Translations under genes and position numbers: made by a program
Part shown: piece by piece, positions 53,342-62,917 of the stretch
How the letters are laid out: each line of letters begins with the position of its first letter
Position numbering within the stretch: position 1 is the stretch's first letter
Source: Methanopyrus sp. SNP6
GTDB lineage: Archaea > JAADCQ01 > Methanopyri > Methanopyrales > Methanopyraceae
Assembly: GCF_002201895.1 (NCBI RefSeq)
Contig: NZ_CP019436.1
Location: 633,456 to 697,455, forward strand
Length of the DNA: 64,000 bases
Reading direction: 5' to 3'
The notes under the pieces: model-generated
Seen by the model: only the letters and a program-made list of their open reading frames with translations
What the model was told of the DNA's origin: nothing
Databases searched by the model: none

Positions 53342-53740
53342 TTATTCCAGCAGGTACACTATACCTTTGTCCAAGTCCACCTCCACTTCACTACCCTCTG
53401 GAGGCATGAGATGCTCGTGCTCTTCGCCGTGACAGGGTGCATCTTCGGGTATCTCGGGCTCCACTAGGAGGTCCTTTACGTCATCGTCGATAGGTTTCGC
53501 CTCTTTTACAACGGGGATGGCTCCGTCTTCGGAGAGCGTCCGAACATCCCCGGTACAGATTATGGCGACGGCACCCATTACTTCGGGGTACGTGTCGTAG
53601 GCTCCGCCGAGGTCTTGAGTGAAGACTACTTGCCCCTCCTCGATCTCGACTATACGGTCCGGGTGAGTTATGTGGATGACCTCACCGATTACCTTGCCCT
53701 CACCGCGCACGGTTTCCCCTCGCAGCACCGGTGTTGGCAA
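53342..53740 (-). CDS. Swivelling-domain (PEP-utilising-like) protein of the TPP operon
   Basis: This 132-residue protein looks like a free phosphohistidine-type swivelling domain: VIGEVIHITHPDRIVEIEEGQVVFTQDLGGAYDTYPEVMGAVAIICTGD, IPVVKEA and a final GSEVEVDLDKGIVYLLE as in PEP synthase mobile domains. The usual T-x-H motif with the phosphorylated His is missing. A CHGEEHEH cluster could bind metal. It is the first gene of the split TPP-enzyme operon. The assignment is structural and tentative. Confidence 0.5.
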   Translation of the reverse strand: MPTPVLRGETVRGEGKVIGEVIHITHPDRIVEIEEGQVVFTQDLGGAYDTYPEVMGAVAIICTGDVRTLSEDGAIPVVKEAKPIDDDVKDLLVEPEIPEDAPCHGEEHEHLMPPEGSEVEVDLDKGIVYLLE

Positions 53741-53831
53741 ATCGGTCCCCCCGTCAGCTCGGGACCGGCACCCTTATTTGGGTTCTTCATTCCGGATAGC
53801 CTGCGACACTCGCTCTCGGAGGGGTAGTCCG

Positions 53832-54344
53832 TTGGAAGAGCGAACTAGGTGCGAGATATGCGGACGCGTGGTCGACGGTCGACCTAAGGTCGTGAAGGTG
53901 GAAGGATCGGAACTGCGAGTGTGCGAGGAATGTGCCAAGTTCGGCCGGAAGGTAGTCAAGCCGGGACTTCGCCGTGAGGAACGGACGCAGCGTGAGCAGC
54001 GTCCACGGCGCAGACTCATCGGCGCAAGACGAAGACCGAGAGGGCTCGATCCCTTCAGCGAGGGTCTGGAGGTAGTCCCAGATTATGACGAGCGCGTCCG
54101 CGAGGCTAGAGAACGTAGAGGTTGGAGCCAGAAGGACCTAGCTAGGAAGATCGGGGAGAAGGTTTCGGTGATCCGACGTATTGAGTCTGGTAAGATGGAA
54201 CCGGACGTCGAGTTGGCGCGCAAGCTGGAGCGGGTTTTGGAAATAGAGCTCCTAGAGCGGGTGAGTGAAGAGGACACCGGATCCGTGGGAATAGAGAGCG
54301 ACGAGCTGACGTTAGGTGATGTGGTAGAAATTAGGAAGAAGTGA
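53832..54344 (+). CDS. MBF1-type zinc-ribbon and HTH transcription factor
   Basis: This 170-residue protein has an N-terminal zinc ribbon (RCEICGRVVDGRPK...CEECAKFGRKVV), a basic linker (REERTQREQRPRRRLIGARRR) and an XRE-type HTH (YDERVREARERRGWSQKDLARKIGEKVSVIRRIESGKMEP). This is the archaeal MBF1 layout, associated with translation and stress responses. It starts at TTG 53832 and diverges from the swivel-domain gene. Confidence 0.88.
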   Translation: MEERTRCEICGRVVDGRPKVVKVEGSELRVCEECAKFGRKVVKPGLRREERTQREQRPRRRLIGARRRPRGLDPFSEGLEVVPDYDERVREARERRGWSQKDLARKIGEKVSVIRRIESGKMEPDVELARKLERVLEIELLERVSEEDTGSVGIESDELTLGDVVEIRKK

Positions 54345-54347
54345 GCG

Positions 54348-54920
54348 TTACACTAGAGACGTGCGAAGTATCAACGTGACCACAACGATCGCTAGAGCAA
54401 CCGAAACCAAGGCGAATCCGTAAGTTCGGGTGTCGATATGTGCGCTGCGACGTTCCTCCACCACGCGCTCTGCCACCTTCATGCAGAGCTCCCGAGCTTT
54501 ATCTTCAGCCTCACCCTCGTCACCGTTCGAGTATATTCGTAGTCGACCACGGTCACTATCGATGACCAAGAGTACGTCTGCTTCCACACCACGCTCATAG
54601 TCGCACACTTCTTTGAACTGCTCTTTGACCAGAGAGAGTACCTCGTTGATGGTGTACTCGTCCGCGGGAACGTCCAGGAGAAGCTTCCCATCGACCTCCG
54701 TGCCTTCATCAACTATCGCCACATCACAACGCTTAATCGGAAGCGATTCCTCGGAAGTTTCGAGCTTCTCATCGATGGAGAACTTATCGAGATAATCCTC
54801 ACCGAATAGGATCACCTTCCCGGTTTCTTTACACACCGAAGAAAGGATACCTTTATTGAACTCGTCTATCTCACCTATCACTATCACCACATCGTTCTTC
54901 GCGGACTTAACGAGGCTCAT
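54348..54920 (-). CDS. C-terminally membrane-anchored protein downstream of the FtsA-like gene
   Basis: The protein (190 residues from ATG 54918-54920, 209 from an earlier start at 54975-54977) has a Rossmann-like soluble part (VVIVIGEIDEF, GKVILFGEDYLDKF) and a C-terminal membrane helix (FALVSVALAIVVVTLIL) followed by six residues. ATG 54920 lies inside the FtsA-like stop region, with GGAGGT two bases upstream. The tail anchor would hold its soluble domain at the cytoplasmic face. I do not recognise a family. Confidence 0.65.
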   Translation of the reverse strand: MSLVKSAKNDVVIVIGEIDEFNKGILSSVCKETGKVILFGEDYLDKFSIDEKLETSEESLPIKRCDVAIVDEGTEVDGKLLLDVPADEYTINEVLSLVKEQFKEVCDYERGVEADVLLVIDSDRGRLRIYSNGDEGEAEDKARELCMKVAERVVEERRSAHIDTRTYGFALVSVALAIVVVTLILRTSLV

Positions 54921-56532
54921 TACCTCCGGAATCGTCCAGCCCCTCCTTAAGACCAGTAATGTTGCCTGCCGTCTCACTTACTCCACCCTCGACCTCATGA
55001 AGTTCGTCTACCGGGATGAGAATGGGCCCCATCTCCTTAACTTGAACTATTTTGTACTCCTTCGGAAGCGTGTCCACGGTATCTCCCACTTCCGACCCAC
55101 TGACGTTCACCTTAACGCCGTCGACGTCGTCCGTGCTGTCTGCTCCTTCGAACTTGATGGTTACCGTACCAGCGTACGCCCGACCACGGAGTTCCGCTGT
55201 TACGGGCGCTGGTTGCATCAGGATTATTTCCTTAATGGCGCTGATGATGGCTTCTTTCAGCCCCGTCTTCCTCGGGATCTTTACGGAATCCTCGATCTGG
55301 CCCCCTACTTCGAGGTAATACCGACCTTCGGGAGCGCGGAACTCGTCGATGACCACTTTCACGTCACGACCGGAGCACTGCTGACACAGGGCGGTATCGC
55401 GGAGTACGGAGACCGCCACTACACGCATGGGTCCCGCGAGTTGCTTTCCGATGTGTGGTATCTTCGAAGCTTCGAGCATCTCCACCTTGGGTACTATTCC
55501 CAGGTAATCACGGTAGGCGTCGAGAATGGCCTCCCGGACGGCCGTTTCAGCTTGGTCGAGCAAGACCCCTCCTCCGTACAACTCGACCCGCTCCGGGACG
55601 TTCATATCTAAGCTCCTGATGATGCTCTTAACAGCCGATCTCACGGCGTCCCGGACGTACTCCGCAACCTCCTCGATAATCTCCAACACCTCACGGCGGG
55701 TGAGGTCGTACCGCGAAAGTTCCGAGTCGGCCATCGGTGAATTGACCTTCTTTTTGATATTTTCCGCTTCTTCATATGTGAGTCCCAAATCATTAGCTAT
55801 GGCTAAGGTGAAATCACGTCCGCCGACTTTAATGGAATGACACACTTCCACAAGCGTGTCACGCACGACAGAGATGTCTGTAGTACCTCCTCCGGAATCA
55901 ATTAGGAGACAGCTCTCGATTTTATAGTCCCTGATCGCTTTGGCTACGGCGAGGGGTTCGACCGAAATCGTGATTAACTTCATATTAAGAAGCCTGGCGA
56001 TGCGCTCTATGTTATTGATGAGTCCCAAGCTTGTGTTCGATACTATGGCTCTGAACTGCAAGTAAGAGACCTGGGATCCGATGAGACCATCTGGGTGGTC
56101 TGCCCCGAGTTCTCTTGGGTCTACTTCTGCACCATCGACCTTGAGATCCACTATATCGACGGAGACGGGCCAGTTCTCGGGGGAGAACTCCAAGCGGTGC
56201 GCCAGCGCGTATCCTATGTCATCCATGCGAAGCTTTCCTTCGGGACTCACGCTAGCTTCCGCTTCCACCATAGTAAACTTGTCTCCCGTCATCGATAATC
56301 CGATTCCCTCTACGTCCGAAGGACTGACCCCTGCATCACGAAGCGCTTCTTCGACTGTTTTCTTGACTATCCGGCTCACGCCCTTCACGTATCTGACGTT
56401 CCCTCGCTCCATGATCGTGGGGTCGAGAATGTACCGCTCACTGTACCCCTTGACCATCAAGTTACCATTCCTGAGCCGCCCTACGGCGGCTGAAATCACC
56501 TCGGTACCCAAGTCTACGGCGATCACGTGCAA
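54907..56532 (-). CDS. FtsA-like actin-family ATPase with C-terminal extension
   Basis: This 541-residue protein has actin-fold phosphate motifs: VIAVDLGTEVISAAVGRL (residues 3-20), LLIDSGGGTTDISVV (about 209-223) and VELYGGGVLLDQ (about 316-327). The insertion between them (about 115-195, with VDGAEVDPRELG and IVSNTSLGLINNIERIARLLNMKL, then ISVEPLAVAKAI) follows the FtsA SHS2/1C pattern, unlike Hsp70. VGGRDFTLAIANDLGLTYEEAENIKKKV also matches FtsA. After about residue 375 comes a 165-residue extension with CQQC. No membrane-targeting amphipathic tail is visible. FtsA is not the usual archaeal division anchor. Confidence 0.7.
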   Translation of the reverse strand: MHVIAVDLGTEVISAAVGRLRNGNLMVKGYSERYILDPTIMERGNVRYVKGVSRIVKKTVEEALRDAGVSPSDVEGIGLSMTGDKFTMVEAEASVSPEGKLRMDDIGYALAHRLEFSPENWPVSVDIVDLKVDGAEVDPRELGADHPDGLIGSQVSYLQFRAIVSNTSLGLINNIERIARLLNMKLITISVEPLAVAKAIRDYKIESCLLIDSGGGTTDISVVRDTLVEVCHSIKVGGRDFTLAIANDLGLTYEEAENIKKKVNSPMADSELSRYDLTRREVLEIIEEVAEYVRDAVRSAVKSIIRSLDMNVPERVELYGGGVLLDQAETAVREAILDAYRDYLGIVPKVEMLEASKIPHIGKQLAGPMRVVAVSVLRDTALCQQCSGRDVKVVIDEFRAPEGRYYLEVGGQIEDSVKIPRKTGLKEAIISAIKEIILMQPAPVTAELRGRAYAGTVTIKFEGADSTDDVDGVKVNVSGSEVGDTVDTLPKEYKIVQVKEMGPILIPVDELHEVEGGVSETAGNITGLKEGLDDSGGNEPR

Positions 56533-56536
56533 GCGG

Positions 56537-56848
56537 TCATCCCTCCATCTGTCCGAGTTCCCGCTGCTTAGTCCGCTGTCTCTCTACGATCTCCTCTAGG
56601 TCGATATCGTGAGCTGTGAGAAACGCTTCGATCTCTATCAGTAGGTCACCCAGCTCCTCAATGAGCGCTTCCCGGTCGCCGGAACGTACCACGTTCCTAA
56701 CCTCGATAGCCTCCTCCACGAGTCTCGCGCCGGTGGACACCTCTACCGCTCGATCCTTCCGTGGCAGTAACCCCTTAAGGCCGAGGATTTGAGAGCGTAT
56801 CAGATCAACCGACTTGAACCTTCTGACGGCCTCAGCTACGAGGTTCAA
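56537..56848 (-). CDS. MazG-like nucleotide pyrophosphohydrolase
   Basis: This 103-residue helical protein has the MazG-type metal motif EEAIEVRNVVRSGDREALIEELGDLLIEIEAFL (E-x-x-E ... E-x-x-D). Such enzymes clear non-canonical or damaged NTPs. The TTG start overlaps the upstream methyltransferase stop as TTGA (56845-56848). The longer open frame extends through that gene and is not coding. Confidence 0.75.
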   Translation of the reverse strand: MNLVAEAVRRFKSVDLIRSQILGLKGLLPRKDRAVEVSTGARLVEEAIEVRNVVRSGDREALIEELGDLLIEIEAFLTAHDIDLEEIVERQRTKQRELGQMEG

Positions 56849-57393
56849 TGTGAGACTCCCCTGTACACGTAAGCGCGTCGTAAATCGTCCAGTCGCAGCA
56901 CCTCCGGTGCGCCTAATCCTGGAACCTCGAAGGTATAGCTCACAATGGTAGCTCCGCACGATACCAGTTCCTCCGATATTTCCTCGAGAAGGGAAGGCAC
57001 TAAATACACAAATACGACGTCCGGGTCCAACTCCCGCAAGTTGACGTCCCGGACGTCAGAATGTATGAAGATGGTCTTATCGTCTACCCCAAGCGTCTCG
57101 GATTTTGTGAGGGCTAACTCGAGTACATCCTCCCGTACGTCCACTCCCACCCCTTCACACCCGTACAGGTAGGCAGCCGAGATCACGAAGCGACCGTCTC
57201 CGCAACCCAGATCCACCACCCTATTTTCAGGGGTTAACTCCAGCTTTCGAAGGATCCTAACTACGGTCTCGATGGGTGTCGGTACGAAGTATAGCTCCGT
57301 TGGGCACGTCACCACATGACCGTCGCTCCGGTGATACTCAACTTCGTCCGGGAACTCATCGAGCAGTCTCTCGACCTTCCTTCTCCCTATCAT
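56845..57393 (-). CDS. Class I SAM-dependent methyltransferase
   Basis: This 182-residue protein has motif I VVDLGCGDGRFVISAAYLYGCEGVGVDV (about 55-80) and PDVVFVYLVPSLLEEISEEL as motif IV. It resembles small archaeal methyltransferases, possibly protein-lysine methylases. The target is unknown. It overlaps the upstream DUF356-like gene by 38 bases and the MazG gene by four. Confidence 0.8.
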   Translation of the reverse strand: MIGRRKVERLLDEFPDEVEYHRSDGHVVTCPTELYFVPTPIETVVRILRKLELTPENRVVDLGCGDGRFVISAAYLYGCEGVGVDVREDVLELALTKSETLGVDDKTIFIHSDVRDVNLRELDPDVVFVYLVPSLLEEISEELVSCGATIVSYTFEVPGLGAPEVLRLDDLRRAYVYRGVSH

Positions 57394-57748
57394 CTTCGAT
57401 CCTCCGCTTAGGCGAGTGGTATCCGCGAAGCTCCTCGAGCTTTCCGAACCTGCGGGCTATTCCCCTGTACACGTCACCGTGCCTGGGTGTTATAACGATC
57501 AGATGAGCCGGAGGATGGATGTCAGAGATCTTCCGAATAATTTCAGCCGGTTCACCTTCTACGCGAGCGACCGCGGCCACTGGATACCTTCTTCGCACCT
57601 CGCCCAAAAGCTCCCGTACTATCGTGTCGGCAACTTCCGGATCCATAATTCTCGGTTTGCCCAAGATTTTAATACCCGCATACCTTTCGATATCCGACAA
57701 GCTTGTGAGTATCTTCTCGTAAGAATCCGACCTGATCACCACGAACAA
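57356..57748 (-). CDS. DUF356-like archaeal protein
   Basis: This 130-residue protein reads VVIRSDSYEKILTSLSDIERYAGIKILGKPRIMDPEVADTIV near the N terminus and VAAVARVEGEPAEIIRKISDIHPPAHLIVITPRHGD. The pattern recalls the archaeal DUF356 family as I remember it. The function is unknown. It starts at TTG 57746-57748 and leads the operon that ends with the tail-anchored protein. Confidence 0.5.
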   Translation of the reverse strand: MFVVIRSDSYEKILTSLSDIERYAGIKILGKPRIMDPEVADTIVRELLGEVRRRYPVAAVARVEGEPAEIIRKISDIHPPAHLIVITPRHGDVYRGIARRFGKLEELRGYHSPKRRIEDDREKEGRETAR

Positions 57749-59967: not shown

Positions 59968-60606
59968 TTACATCCCCCTGAGCTCGCGTCTGCGCTTGGC
60001 AACCTTCCTGGCGACCACGGCCTCCCCGAGTTTAAACAGGTAAATAAAGAGGTTTTCTAGACCCCCCATGAGCCATAGTACGTATCCGAACGTCCTATCA
60101 CCTATCTTACGCTCGAACTCCTCGGGCGTAAGATCTCGATTTAATTCGCGGTTGAATACCATCGTGGCTGCTTCGATGAACTCATCCCATGATATTCCAG
60201 GCACGTTCTCTTGAATCTTCTCCAGTAGATCCCGCGCCGGCGTGTCGTAAAGGTTAGACATGAGCTCGACGACGGTCCTGAGCGTAACGACACCGACCAC
60301 CCGCATGTCTTCCTCCAGTGGGACGAGCGTGAGGTCGGAGTCCGTAAGGATTTCCACGGCCTTCGTGATAGGGTCGGAGGGAGAGATCGACTCCGGCGAT
60401 CGGCATACTTCCTCGACCGTCTCGGCGCCAGCGGTGAGTCCTCGAGCGATGTCGTTGGACGTTACTAAGCCGACCAAACGATCCGAACCGTTCACCACGA
60501 CAGCCGTGTACTCGGAGTACCTCGCGAGCTCTCGGACAGCCTGCTCGAGACCGTCCTCGGGTTTCACTTTAGGGTACTCTTTAGTGGCCCACATCTCGGC
60601 TTTCAT
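59968..60606 (-). CDS. CBS-domain protein with helical C-terminal domain
   Basis: This 212-residue protein has two CBS domains (about 1-115: [27 protein letters not shown] and [31 protein letters not shown]) and a C-terminal region of about 90 residues with a hydrophobic helix ([26 protein letters not shown]). CBS pairs sense adenosine nucleotides. It is coupled to the polyferredoxin gene by ATGA, so it may regulate or sense the redox operon. Exact role unknown. Confidence 0.8.
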
Positions 60607-61361
60607 CGCACTTCCTCCCTAACTTCCTTGATCTTTATCGCACCAGTCGGACAGTTTCGAGCACATTCTCCGCATCTTATGCACAGATCGTAGGAAATAT
60701 TGGCGACATCGCCATCCATCTCGGCAGCGTCCACTGGGCAGACTTCTACACAGACCCCACATCCTATACACAGATCCTGATCCAACTCAATTTCACGCTC
60801 GAATTCAGGAGGTGTTAAGGTACGCTCGATAACGATAGCATCGACAGGACATGCATGCTCACAAGCTTTGCAGCCTATGCATTTATCCTCGTCTATCCTC
60901 AACTTATCAACATTTGGTGCCTCGACAGGACAAATCTGCTCACAAAGACGACAGGCTATGCATAGATCTTCTCTCAGGATTGCCCTCCTAAGTACGAACT
61001 TACGTCTTATTACATCAACTTCCTCGAGCTTCACTTCAATACTGTTATCAGCTACTCGGGCTTCACCGGATACCACCTTGATAGCATCTACAGGGCAAGA
61101 CTTGGCACATAACCGACACCTTACACATGCGTCGTGATCAACTTCCGGAGGATTGGTACTGTCAGGTTCTGTTAGAGCATCTACCGGGCACTCTTCGTAG
61201 CATGTCTTGCACCCTACACATCGCTCGGAGTCTATAGTCACGAACTCCCGACGTACAGCTGGTGTCTCAGAAAGTACTTCCAACACTATATCTCTATCAG
61301 CGTCTTCCACACTATCTAACACCATTTCAACCACTTTATCGATCGGAATTTCGAGCGTTTT
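60603..61361 (-). CDS. Polyferredoxin with six [4Fe-4S] motifs
   Basis: This 252-residue protein begins [19 protein letters not shown] and then shows six C-x-x-C-x-x-C-x-x-x-CP motifs: [60 protein letters not shown] and [12 protein letters not shown]. It could carry electrons for the energy-converting hydrogenase encoded upstream, like the polyferredoxins of Eha/Ehb complexes. It overlaps the upstream polyferredoxin by 26 bases. Confidence 0.88.
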
Positions 61362-61803
61362 CATCTCCGGAGTCCCCCACGGGTTCGATAGCACGGGACG
61401 GACAGGTTCGAACGCACTCGAGACATCCTATACACCGATCAACGTCTAACTTGGGAAGAGGTCCTTTTGAGCCGGAGAGCGCTTCAACCGGGCAGGAAGA
61501 AGAGCACGCCTGGCAACCGACGCATTTGGACTCGGATATTCGCACGCCCACCTCTGGACGTTCTGTCAGAACCTCGATTCGGTAGCTTCCTTTGGGAAGC
61601 TCACATATGGCACGGCCGAGGAGTATGGCATCAAAAGGACATACCTCCACACACAAGCCGCACCGTACGCAGTTCTTCTCGTCGATCTTAGTGGAATCCT
61701 CCACCTCGATCGCGTCTGTGGGGCACTCTTTCTCACAGAGACCACAGGCGCGGCATAACTCGTGTATCACAACAATTTCACGGACTTCGATGATCACGTC
61801 CAC
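61336..61803 (-). CDS. Polyferredoxin with four [4Fe-4S] motifs
   Basis: This 155-residue protein has four cluster motifs: [36 protein letters not shown] and [13 protein letters not shown] stretch between the second and third motif ([26 protein letters not shown]) separates two ferredoxin-like halves. It starts at GTG 61801-61803, overlaps the next upstream gene by 26 bases, and belongs to the same transcription unit. Confidence 0.87.
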
Positions 61804-62917
61804 TCACCACCTCAGCCATGAGCTCCTCTATCACGTTCTTCACTTCGAACTTGACGATACGGCGTACCCTTTCCTTGGACATCTTACGTTCTAAAAGTTC
61901 GGAAAGCCTCTCCTCGACGTTCCTTTCAGTCTTAGTAGTTGAGCCGAATTCCTCGGCTGCTTCCAGCATTTCTCGGGTTAAGATGCCGAGGAACGCATCG
62001 GAGATCCGAGACCGCAGCACTTCACGCTCTGCCTCCTCCGTAGGTATGCGGTCCACGGCAGATGTCGGACAGGCGTCCGTGCACAAGCCGCATCGCACGC
62101 ACAGGTCGGGCATGATCACAGGCATCCGAGTTATTTCCTCGATGCATATAGCGTCCACCGGGCAGATATCGTAGCATATACGACATCCTATGCACATGTC
62201 GGGTCGTATGTAAAACACTTCGTCGGTACACTTAGGTCGTGGACGGTGATCAGGTCGTTTCAGTGCTTCCGTAGGACAGTATGCTACACAATTGTAACAT
62301 CCTAAGCACCGTTCAGGGTCCGGATCCCCATCTGGAACGTTGTCAGCTGCGCCTGTCGGGCACACCTCGTGACAGCGGTTACACTCAACACACAGCTCCC
62401 TATTCAGTCGTGGATTACTTCGACGTTTGAGCTGAGGTACTTCCAACTCTACTGTAACACTACCATAGGGACAAACTTTTACACACTCTAAACATCCACG
62501 ACATGCGTCCAAGTCTATTCTATGCTCTTCAATGATCTCACGCATAACTCCAGTGGGGCAAACCTCAATGCAAGGCTTATCTTCACAGCGATCACATGTG
62601 CGGAGATCAACACCGATGAACTTCACTTCAATATCCGCTTTAGGAACACGAACAGGTCTGCGTTTCGGCTTTAATTCCGTAAATGATATCTCATAAAACC
62701 TGAATACATCACGGGGACACGCCTGTACACAGAAAGAACATGCTACACACCGATCCTCATCGAGCCGTATCTGCTCGTTTATCTCGATCGCTCCGGTAGG
62801 GCAGACTTCATCACAGAGGCCGCATCCCGCGCACTCGTCGGGCCGTTCGACTTCCACGATGTTTACGGTCACGTTACGGAGGCGATCCTCAAAGAAGAAG
62901 TGAAGATCGGTCACCAC
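61778..62917 (-). CDS. Polyferredoxin with eight [4Fe-4S] motifs and a helical tail
   Basis: This 379-residue protein has eight cluster motifs: CAGCGLCDEVCP, CVACSFCVQACP, a variant CDRCEDKPCIEVCP, CRGCLECVKVCP, CVECNRCHEVCP, CLGCYNCVAYCP, CIGCRICYDICP and CVRCGLCTDACP. A Cys-free helical tail (about 295-379) contains ISDAFLGILTREMLEAAEEFG. This tail could dock to a hydrogenase or partner. It is the largest polyferredoxin here. Confidence 0.87.
   Translation of the reverse strand: MVTDLHFFFEDRLRNVTVNIVEVERPDECAGCGLCDEVCPTGAIEINEQIRLDEDRCVACSFCVQACPRDVFRFYEISFTELKPKRRPVRVPKADIEVKFIGVDLRTCDRCEDKPCIEVCPTGVMREIIEEHRIDLDACRGCLECVKVCPYGSVTVELEVPQLKRRSNPRLNRELCVECNRCHEVCPTGAADNVPDGDPDPERCLGCYNCVAYCPTEALKRPDHRPRPKCTDEVFYIRPDMCIGCRICYDICPVDAICIEEITRMPVIMPDLCVRCGLCTDACPTSAVDRIPTEEAEREVLRSRISDAFLGILTREMLEAAEEFGSTTKTERNVEERLSELLERKMSKERVRRIVKFEVKNVIEELMAEVVSGRDHRSP

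Follow-up and report, generated by a model that had tools for sequence, protein, structure and literature searches.

An FtsA/PilM-class actin-like ATPase paired with a tail-anchored protein in the archaeal genus Methanopyrus

Methanopyrus sp. SNP6 encodes an actin-like ATPase of the FtsA/PilM class, which is not a bona fide FtsA, next to a tail-anchored partner protein, and the pair recurs with overlapping genes in every Methanopyrus genome compared. The locus (positions 54348-57748) lies in a stretch of 64,000 nucleotides (nt), hereafter the window, whose positions are used throughout unless genome positions are indicated. The window belongs to the 1.42-Mb single-contig genome of this heat-loving, pseudomurein-walled methanogen. 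Relatives within the phylum were represented by four other genomes of the one genus, which gave a comparison set of five Methanopyrus genomes, two of them nearly identical, and distribution was surveyed in 394 archaeal genomes. Our preferred, still tentative reading is that the ATPase is anchored in trans by its partner and has an accessory role in division or at the envelope beside FtsZ and SepF.

According to Pende et al. (2021, PMC8178401), Methanopyri are the only archaea with an FtsA-like homologue, whose function is given as unknown and whose gene is suggested to have come from bacteria by transfer. This homologue is almost certainly the ATPase described here, since the latter is the sole FtsA-like match, apart from MreB, in the Methanopyrus genomes. 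The partner, the missing membrane tail and the operon are not mentioned in the available part of that account (PMC8178401), and no report of them was found in the literature searched, whose coverage leaves out most subscription journals. The constant tail-anchored partner, the genus-wide absence of FtsA's own anchor and the position of the gene block between MBF1 and DUF356 look new.

Results

The ATPase and its tail-anchored partner

The ATPase (541 amino acids (aa), TTG start) is encoded at 54907-56532 on the minus strand, which carries all features of the pair given below, and was identified by profiles, structure-sequence search and Foldseek. Its orthologues in the four other genomes are 61-96% identical. 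The phosphate-1 motif DLGT (residues 7-10, 56503-56514) is invariant in the five genomes, as is the phosphate-2 motif LLIDSGGGTTD (residues 209-219, 55876-55908) from L209 to D219; in the adenosine motif ELYGGGVLLD (residues 317-326, 55555-55584), GG and LLD are invariant. These motifs bear out a preliminary description of the locus, in which the protein was taken as an actin-family ATPase with FtsA-type phosphate motifs. An FtsA-like 1C-type insertion occupies approximately residues 84-175 (56008-56283), as judged from the alignment of FtsA across this stretch and from a comparison of lengths, and the ATPase core probably ends near residue 383.

The C-terminal extension (residues 376-541, 54910-55407) has no Pfam match, and family and structure searches returned no known family or fold for it. 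It is 56-96% identical across the genus, with a ratio of non-synonymous to synonymous substitution (dN/dS) of 0.086, and its strongest signature is QVKEMGPI, invariant in the five genomes. The preliminary description had regarded these 165 residues, with a CQQC motif, as foreign to known FtsA. The extension is indeed an orphan; the motif did not hold up, being confined to the two nearly identical genomes, with SVHC, CQAH and CQRH at the same place in the other three. A metal or redox site at CQQC was rejected because the motif is not conserved in the genus. As had also been proposed, the FtsA-type membrane tail is absent: neither an FtsA-like amphipathic helix nor a hydrophobic tail was found in the last 80 residues of the five ATPases, all of which end in an acidic, glycine-rich stretch.

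Directly after the ATPase gene lies that of the partner (209 aa, GTG start, 54348-54977), which proved to be the C-terminally anchored protein of the preliminary description. The two genes share 71 nt (54907-54977) in different frames. This overlap is kept in the genus (71, 71, 83, 101 and 71 nt in the five genomes), together with the partner's GTG start, and a long overlap persists down to 61-64% ATPase identity. Within it the conserved frame is that of the partner, with ATL, LR and GWTIPEV invariant. Partner orthologues accompany the ATPase in all five genomes (44-95% identical), and each bears a C-terminal hydrophobic stretch of 19 residues with a mean hydropathy of 2.3-2.8 and basic residues before it. 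In SNP6, the predicted single membrane helix covers residues 186-204 (54366-54422; hydropathy 2.64 over 19 residues). Pfam, NCBIfam and PHROG gave no useful match to the partner, and no confident structural match was obtained despite a fair model (predicted local distance difference test, pLDDT, of 78). On this model, the partner is predicted to be an alpha/beta protein whose long C-terminal helix carries the membrane span. A similarity to methanogenesis marker protein 17 (E 0.16) was under any useful threshold and was discarded.

Both genes are under purifying selection: comparison of the two closest genomes gave dN/dS values of 0.058 (ATPase) and 0.093 (partner). Together with the retention of the block in all five genomes, these low values indicate that its arrangement is not due to chance.

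Class of the ATPase

Profile comparison ranked FtsA first for the ATPase (TIGR01174, 65.9 bits, residues 3-270), followed by EutJ (48.6), PilM (30.8) and MreB (28.5); the Pfam FtsA profile gave 43 bits (cut-off 31.8) on residues 210-334. The four ranked scores are all far under the curated cut-offs, which are 175.85 bits for TIGR01174, 133 for PilM and 366 for MreB, and neither PilM nor EutJ gave the confident match that would speak against kinship with FtsA. Two relatives scored 64-70 bits with TIGR01174, against PilM scores of 31-44 bits. When the five-row ATPase profile was compared with solved structures, FtsA aligned over residues 3-268, across the 1C insertion, and EutJ, PilM and MreB aligned around phosphate 2 only. 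The 1C-bearing stretch measures 130-131 residues in Methanopyrus, against 126-128 in FtsA linked to ftsZ (of division and cell wall, or dcw, type) and 131 in the long-branched Fusobacterium FtsA; in EutJ, where 1C is missing, it measures 42-45. An AlphaFold2 model of the ATPase built from five sequences was poor (mean pLDDT 49) and the Foldseek template modelling (TM) scores were consequently low (about 0.3); with this model, 19 FtsA chains came first, then PilM, then EutJ. The FtsA-like 1C insertion proposed in the preliminary description is thus supported by alignment, by length and by the nature of the top 19 Foldseek matches.

On the strength of the profile ranking, the alignment with structures, the 1C length and the Foldseek ranking, the FtsA/PilM class of the ATPase is secure; its membership of FtsA itself is not. 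It is not a bona fide FtsA, because its score is below the cut-off, it has no amphipathic helix, its gene is away from ftsZ, the trees place it outside the clade of bacterial FtsA sampled, and its C-terminal domain is an orphan. The protein shares with bacterial FtsA the 1A-1C-2A architecture, the nucleotide motifs and the top profile and fold matches, but differs from it in the missing C-terminal helix, the orphan extension of 165 residues, a position not beside ftsZ, a TIGR01174 score of 66 bits against a cut-off of 176 and a shorter 2A/2B stretch. This stretch, where FtsA binds FtsZ, has 61 residues, against 70-79 in 10 of the 11 normal-length ftsZ-linked or plasmid FtsA proteins, which makes direct FtsZ binding mildly doubtful. 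The idea that a short 2B distinguishes FtsA proteins without a division role was itself weakened, as the stretch of the Fusobacterium FtsA has 63 residues and its gene is beside ftsZ.

EutJ (about 280 aa) has no 1C module, whereas the Methanopyrus ATPase has 541 aa and does contain one. MreB carries a 1B subdomain; the ATPase has 1C and scores 28.5 bits with the MreB profile, against a cut-off of 366, and a separate MreB is encoded in the genome. That MreB (L011 790-2073; genome 470.1-471.4 kb) bears about 80 charged residues N-terminal of the actin fold.

Phylogeny and distribution

Trees built from 24 and from 26 proteins placed the bacterial FtsA sequences behind a branch that excludes the Methanopyrus ATPases (95/96; recovered in 98% and 96% of bootstrap replicates), and the Methanopyrus stem was very long (2.9 changes per column). 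The approximately unbiased test gave p-values (p-AU) of 0.23-0.33 for the Methanopyrus ATPase joining FtsA, EutJ or MreB, and a sister relation to FtsA was not rejected (p-AU 0.30). Since the sampled bacterial FtsA excludes the Methanopyrus proteins in these trees, a transfer from within it is not supported on this small sample.

Profile searches for the two proteins detected both in all five Methanopyrus genomes and, elsewhere among the 394 archaea, nothing beyond a few marginal E-value matches. The ATPase alignment profile, run against GTDB genomes, returned Methanopyri alone, and a single-sequence scan gave no match. A viral origin found no support in viral contigs, which contained no relatives; three weak matches were to unannotated phage records.

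A second archaeal FtsA-like group, different and longer, exists outside Methanopyri. One methanogen genus, which probably belongs to Methanosarcinaceae, encodes a 709-aa FtsA/PilM-like protein (TIGR01174 124 bits) with a long repeated C-terminal part, between cheA-/cheC-like and cheR-like genes (L051 445-2571, minus strand, and L052 1474-3600, plus strand; genomes G295 and G241). It forms a clade (99/99) with proteins from Acetoanaerobium (708 aa) and Anoxybacillus (720 aa, 'PilM'). These extended proteins of 708-720 aa resemble the Methanopyrus ATPase in the large extension that follows an FtsA-like core and in having no ftsZ in the locus stretch examined; the 2A/2B stretch of the Acetoanaerobium and Anoxybacillus proteins, with 61-62 residues, is also like that of the ATPase. 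They differ from it in their extensions, which show no detectable homology to that of the ATPase, and a common origin with the bacterial extensions was unsupported (hhalign probability near 0). A protein annotated as FtsA on Rossellomorea plasmid CP128836.1 (L048 792-2039) has a long tree branch and a short 2A/2B stretch, with no ftsZ in the stretch examined.

FtsZ and SepF

Each of the five Methanopyrus genomes encodes one FtsZ, whose C-terminal peptide is conserved (LEDLEKIL in SNP6), and one SepF, which exceeds the Pfam cut-off and has an amphipathic N-terminal stretch (for example MLGFLRRIFGE). SepF, the archaeal FtsZ anchor, works at the membrane; it is a protein unrelated to the pair and separately present in the same genomes. 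The preliminary description had suggested that the pair may replace or supplement SepF. Because the usual anchor of FtsZ is present in all five genomes, the pair cannot replace it, and this part of the suggestion was abandoned; a supplementary role may still hold.

Genetic context of the pair

The pair belongs to a run of five minus-strand open reading frames (ORFs), spaced by a few nt or overlapping, whose order and arrangement are identical in the five genomes. Pfam named four of them as DUF356, S-adenosylmethionine (SAM) methyltransferase, MazG and FtsA-type actin ATPase, and gave no match for the fifth, that of the partner. Coordinates and Pfam therefore agree with the single minus-strand operon of the preliminary description, with DUF356-like, methyltransferase and MazG-like genes. 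The first gene encodes a DUF356 protein (57356-57748; Pfam DUF356 124 bits), a family found in 76 of the 394 archaeal genomes. It is followed by a SAM-dependent methyltransferase (56845-57393), closest to an archaeal protein-lysine methyltransferase but under the cut-off of the latter, and by a MazG-like nucleotide pyrophosphohydrolase ORF (56537-56959; Pfam MazG 34 bits), whose true start is probably near 56848, as homology begins at about residue 38. An MBF1-like regulator ORF with an HTH_3 domain (53670-54344, plus strand) is convergent with the operon. No pilus or secretion genes were found in the operon, the neighbours being DUF356, methyltransferase, MazG, MBF1 and HflX genes. A Shine-Dalgarno scan was uninformative.

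In archaeal genomes that have DUF356, its gene is often near that of an MBF1-like regulator. Four genomes from other methanogen families (L117, L118, L119 and L121; 14 kb read) have them side by side and convergent, and in one of these (L121) they abut. In Methanopyrus (53670-57748) they keep the same orientation and are split by exactly the partner, ATPase, MazG and methyltransferase genes. The simplest reading is that this four-gene block was inserted in the Methanopyrus line; its loss elsewhere is possible but would need more events. Further along the window (60603-62917, minus strand), three consecutive ORFs rich in CxxCxxCxxxCP are polyferredoxin-like, with many predicted 4Fe-4S clusters.

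Discussion

In the reading preferred here, the ATPase would oligomerise with ATP at the inner face of the membrane, and the soluble domain of the partner would bind it, perhaps via the orphan C-terminal domain. The single C-terminal helix of the partner would tie this assembly to the membrane, standing in for FtsA's own C-terminal helix. The pair would operate alongside the usual FtsZ and SepF proteins, and its most plausible task would be division or the growth of the envelope. Anchoring in trans is suggested by the constant pairing, by the gene overlap and by the absence of a tail in the ATPase together with the presence of a helix in the partner. We infer that the two proteins may bind physically, that filaments may form and that the pair may serve division or the envelope.

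Several points weigh against this reading. The pairing was seen in one genus and is thus not independent evidence of a complex, and the binding of the two proteins is itself inferred. The remaining operon genes have no known role in division. The ATPase gene (genome position 688,365) is about 355 kb from ftsZ (1,043,795) and sepF is also about 355 kb away from it; no gene-context or sequence evidence tying the pair to FtsZ was found. The short 2A/2B stretch and the poor ATPase model are to be counted here as well. That the pair constitutes a two-protein actin-like membrane system apart from FtsA, PilM and MreB, with an FtsA-class filament and an anchor encoded by an overlapping gene, working alongside FtsZ-SepF, appears doubtful.

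The ATPase and its membrane partner might otherwise be a PilM-like platform and serve a pilus, a secretion system or another envelope machine on its cytoplasmic side, without a link to FtsZ. PilM shares the 1C architecture and comes close behind FtsA in Foldseek, PilM-PilN of type IV pili is likewise a 1C-bearing actin-like ATPase whose gene adjoins that of a single-span membrane protein, and an extended FtsA/PilM-like protein sits in a chemotaxis operon in some archaea. However, PilM profiles score half as high as FtsA, the operon is free of genes for pili or secretion, and the membrane helix is C-terminal in the partner, whereas that of PilN comes after a short N-terminal tail. Such a platform is unlikely. 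Direct binding of the ATPase to the C-terminal peptide of FtsZ, with the partner linking the ATPase to the membrane as a second tether of the Z ring parallel to SepF, is also improbable. The FtsA-class fold, the conserved FtsZ peptide in all five genomes and the occurrence of both FtsA and SepF in several bacteria (PMC8178401) are in its favour, but the ATPase gene is unlinked to ftsZ, the protein lies outside the bacterial FtsA clade and its 2A/2B stretch is short, though that of the ftsZ-adjacent Fusobacterium FtsA is nearly as short. A role as reactivase or chaperone for some enzyme, of the kind played by EutJ or diol-dehydratase reactivases and with the membrane protein as no more than a co-transcribed neighbour, is very unlikely. 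EutJ was the second-best profile (49 bits) with a strong single-sequence match, and metabolic-type genes are found in the operon, but EutJ lacks the 1C module (42-45 against 130 residues) and aligned around phosphate 2 only, the gene overlap outlasts considerable ATPase divergence, and the ATPase and the partner share one distribution.

If anchoring of the ATPase by its partner is true, an FtsA relative would be held at the membrane by a second protein, and the membrane tail would be separable from the actin-like core. The constant partner offers a testable handle on the membrane recruitment and role of the Methanopyri FtsA-like protein, and the pair bears on division and envelope growth in pseudomurein-walled archaea.

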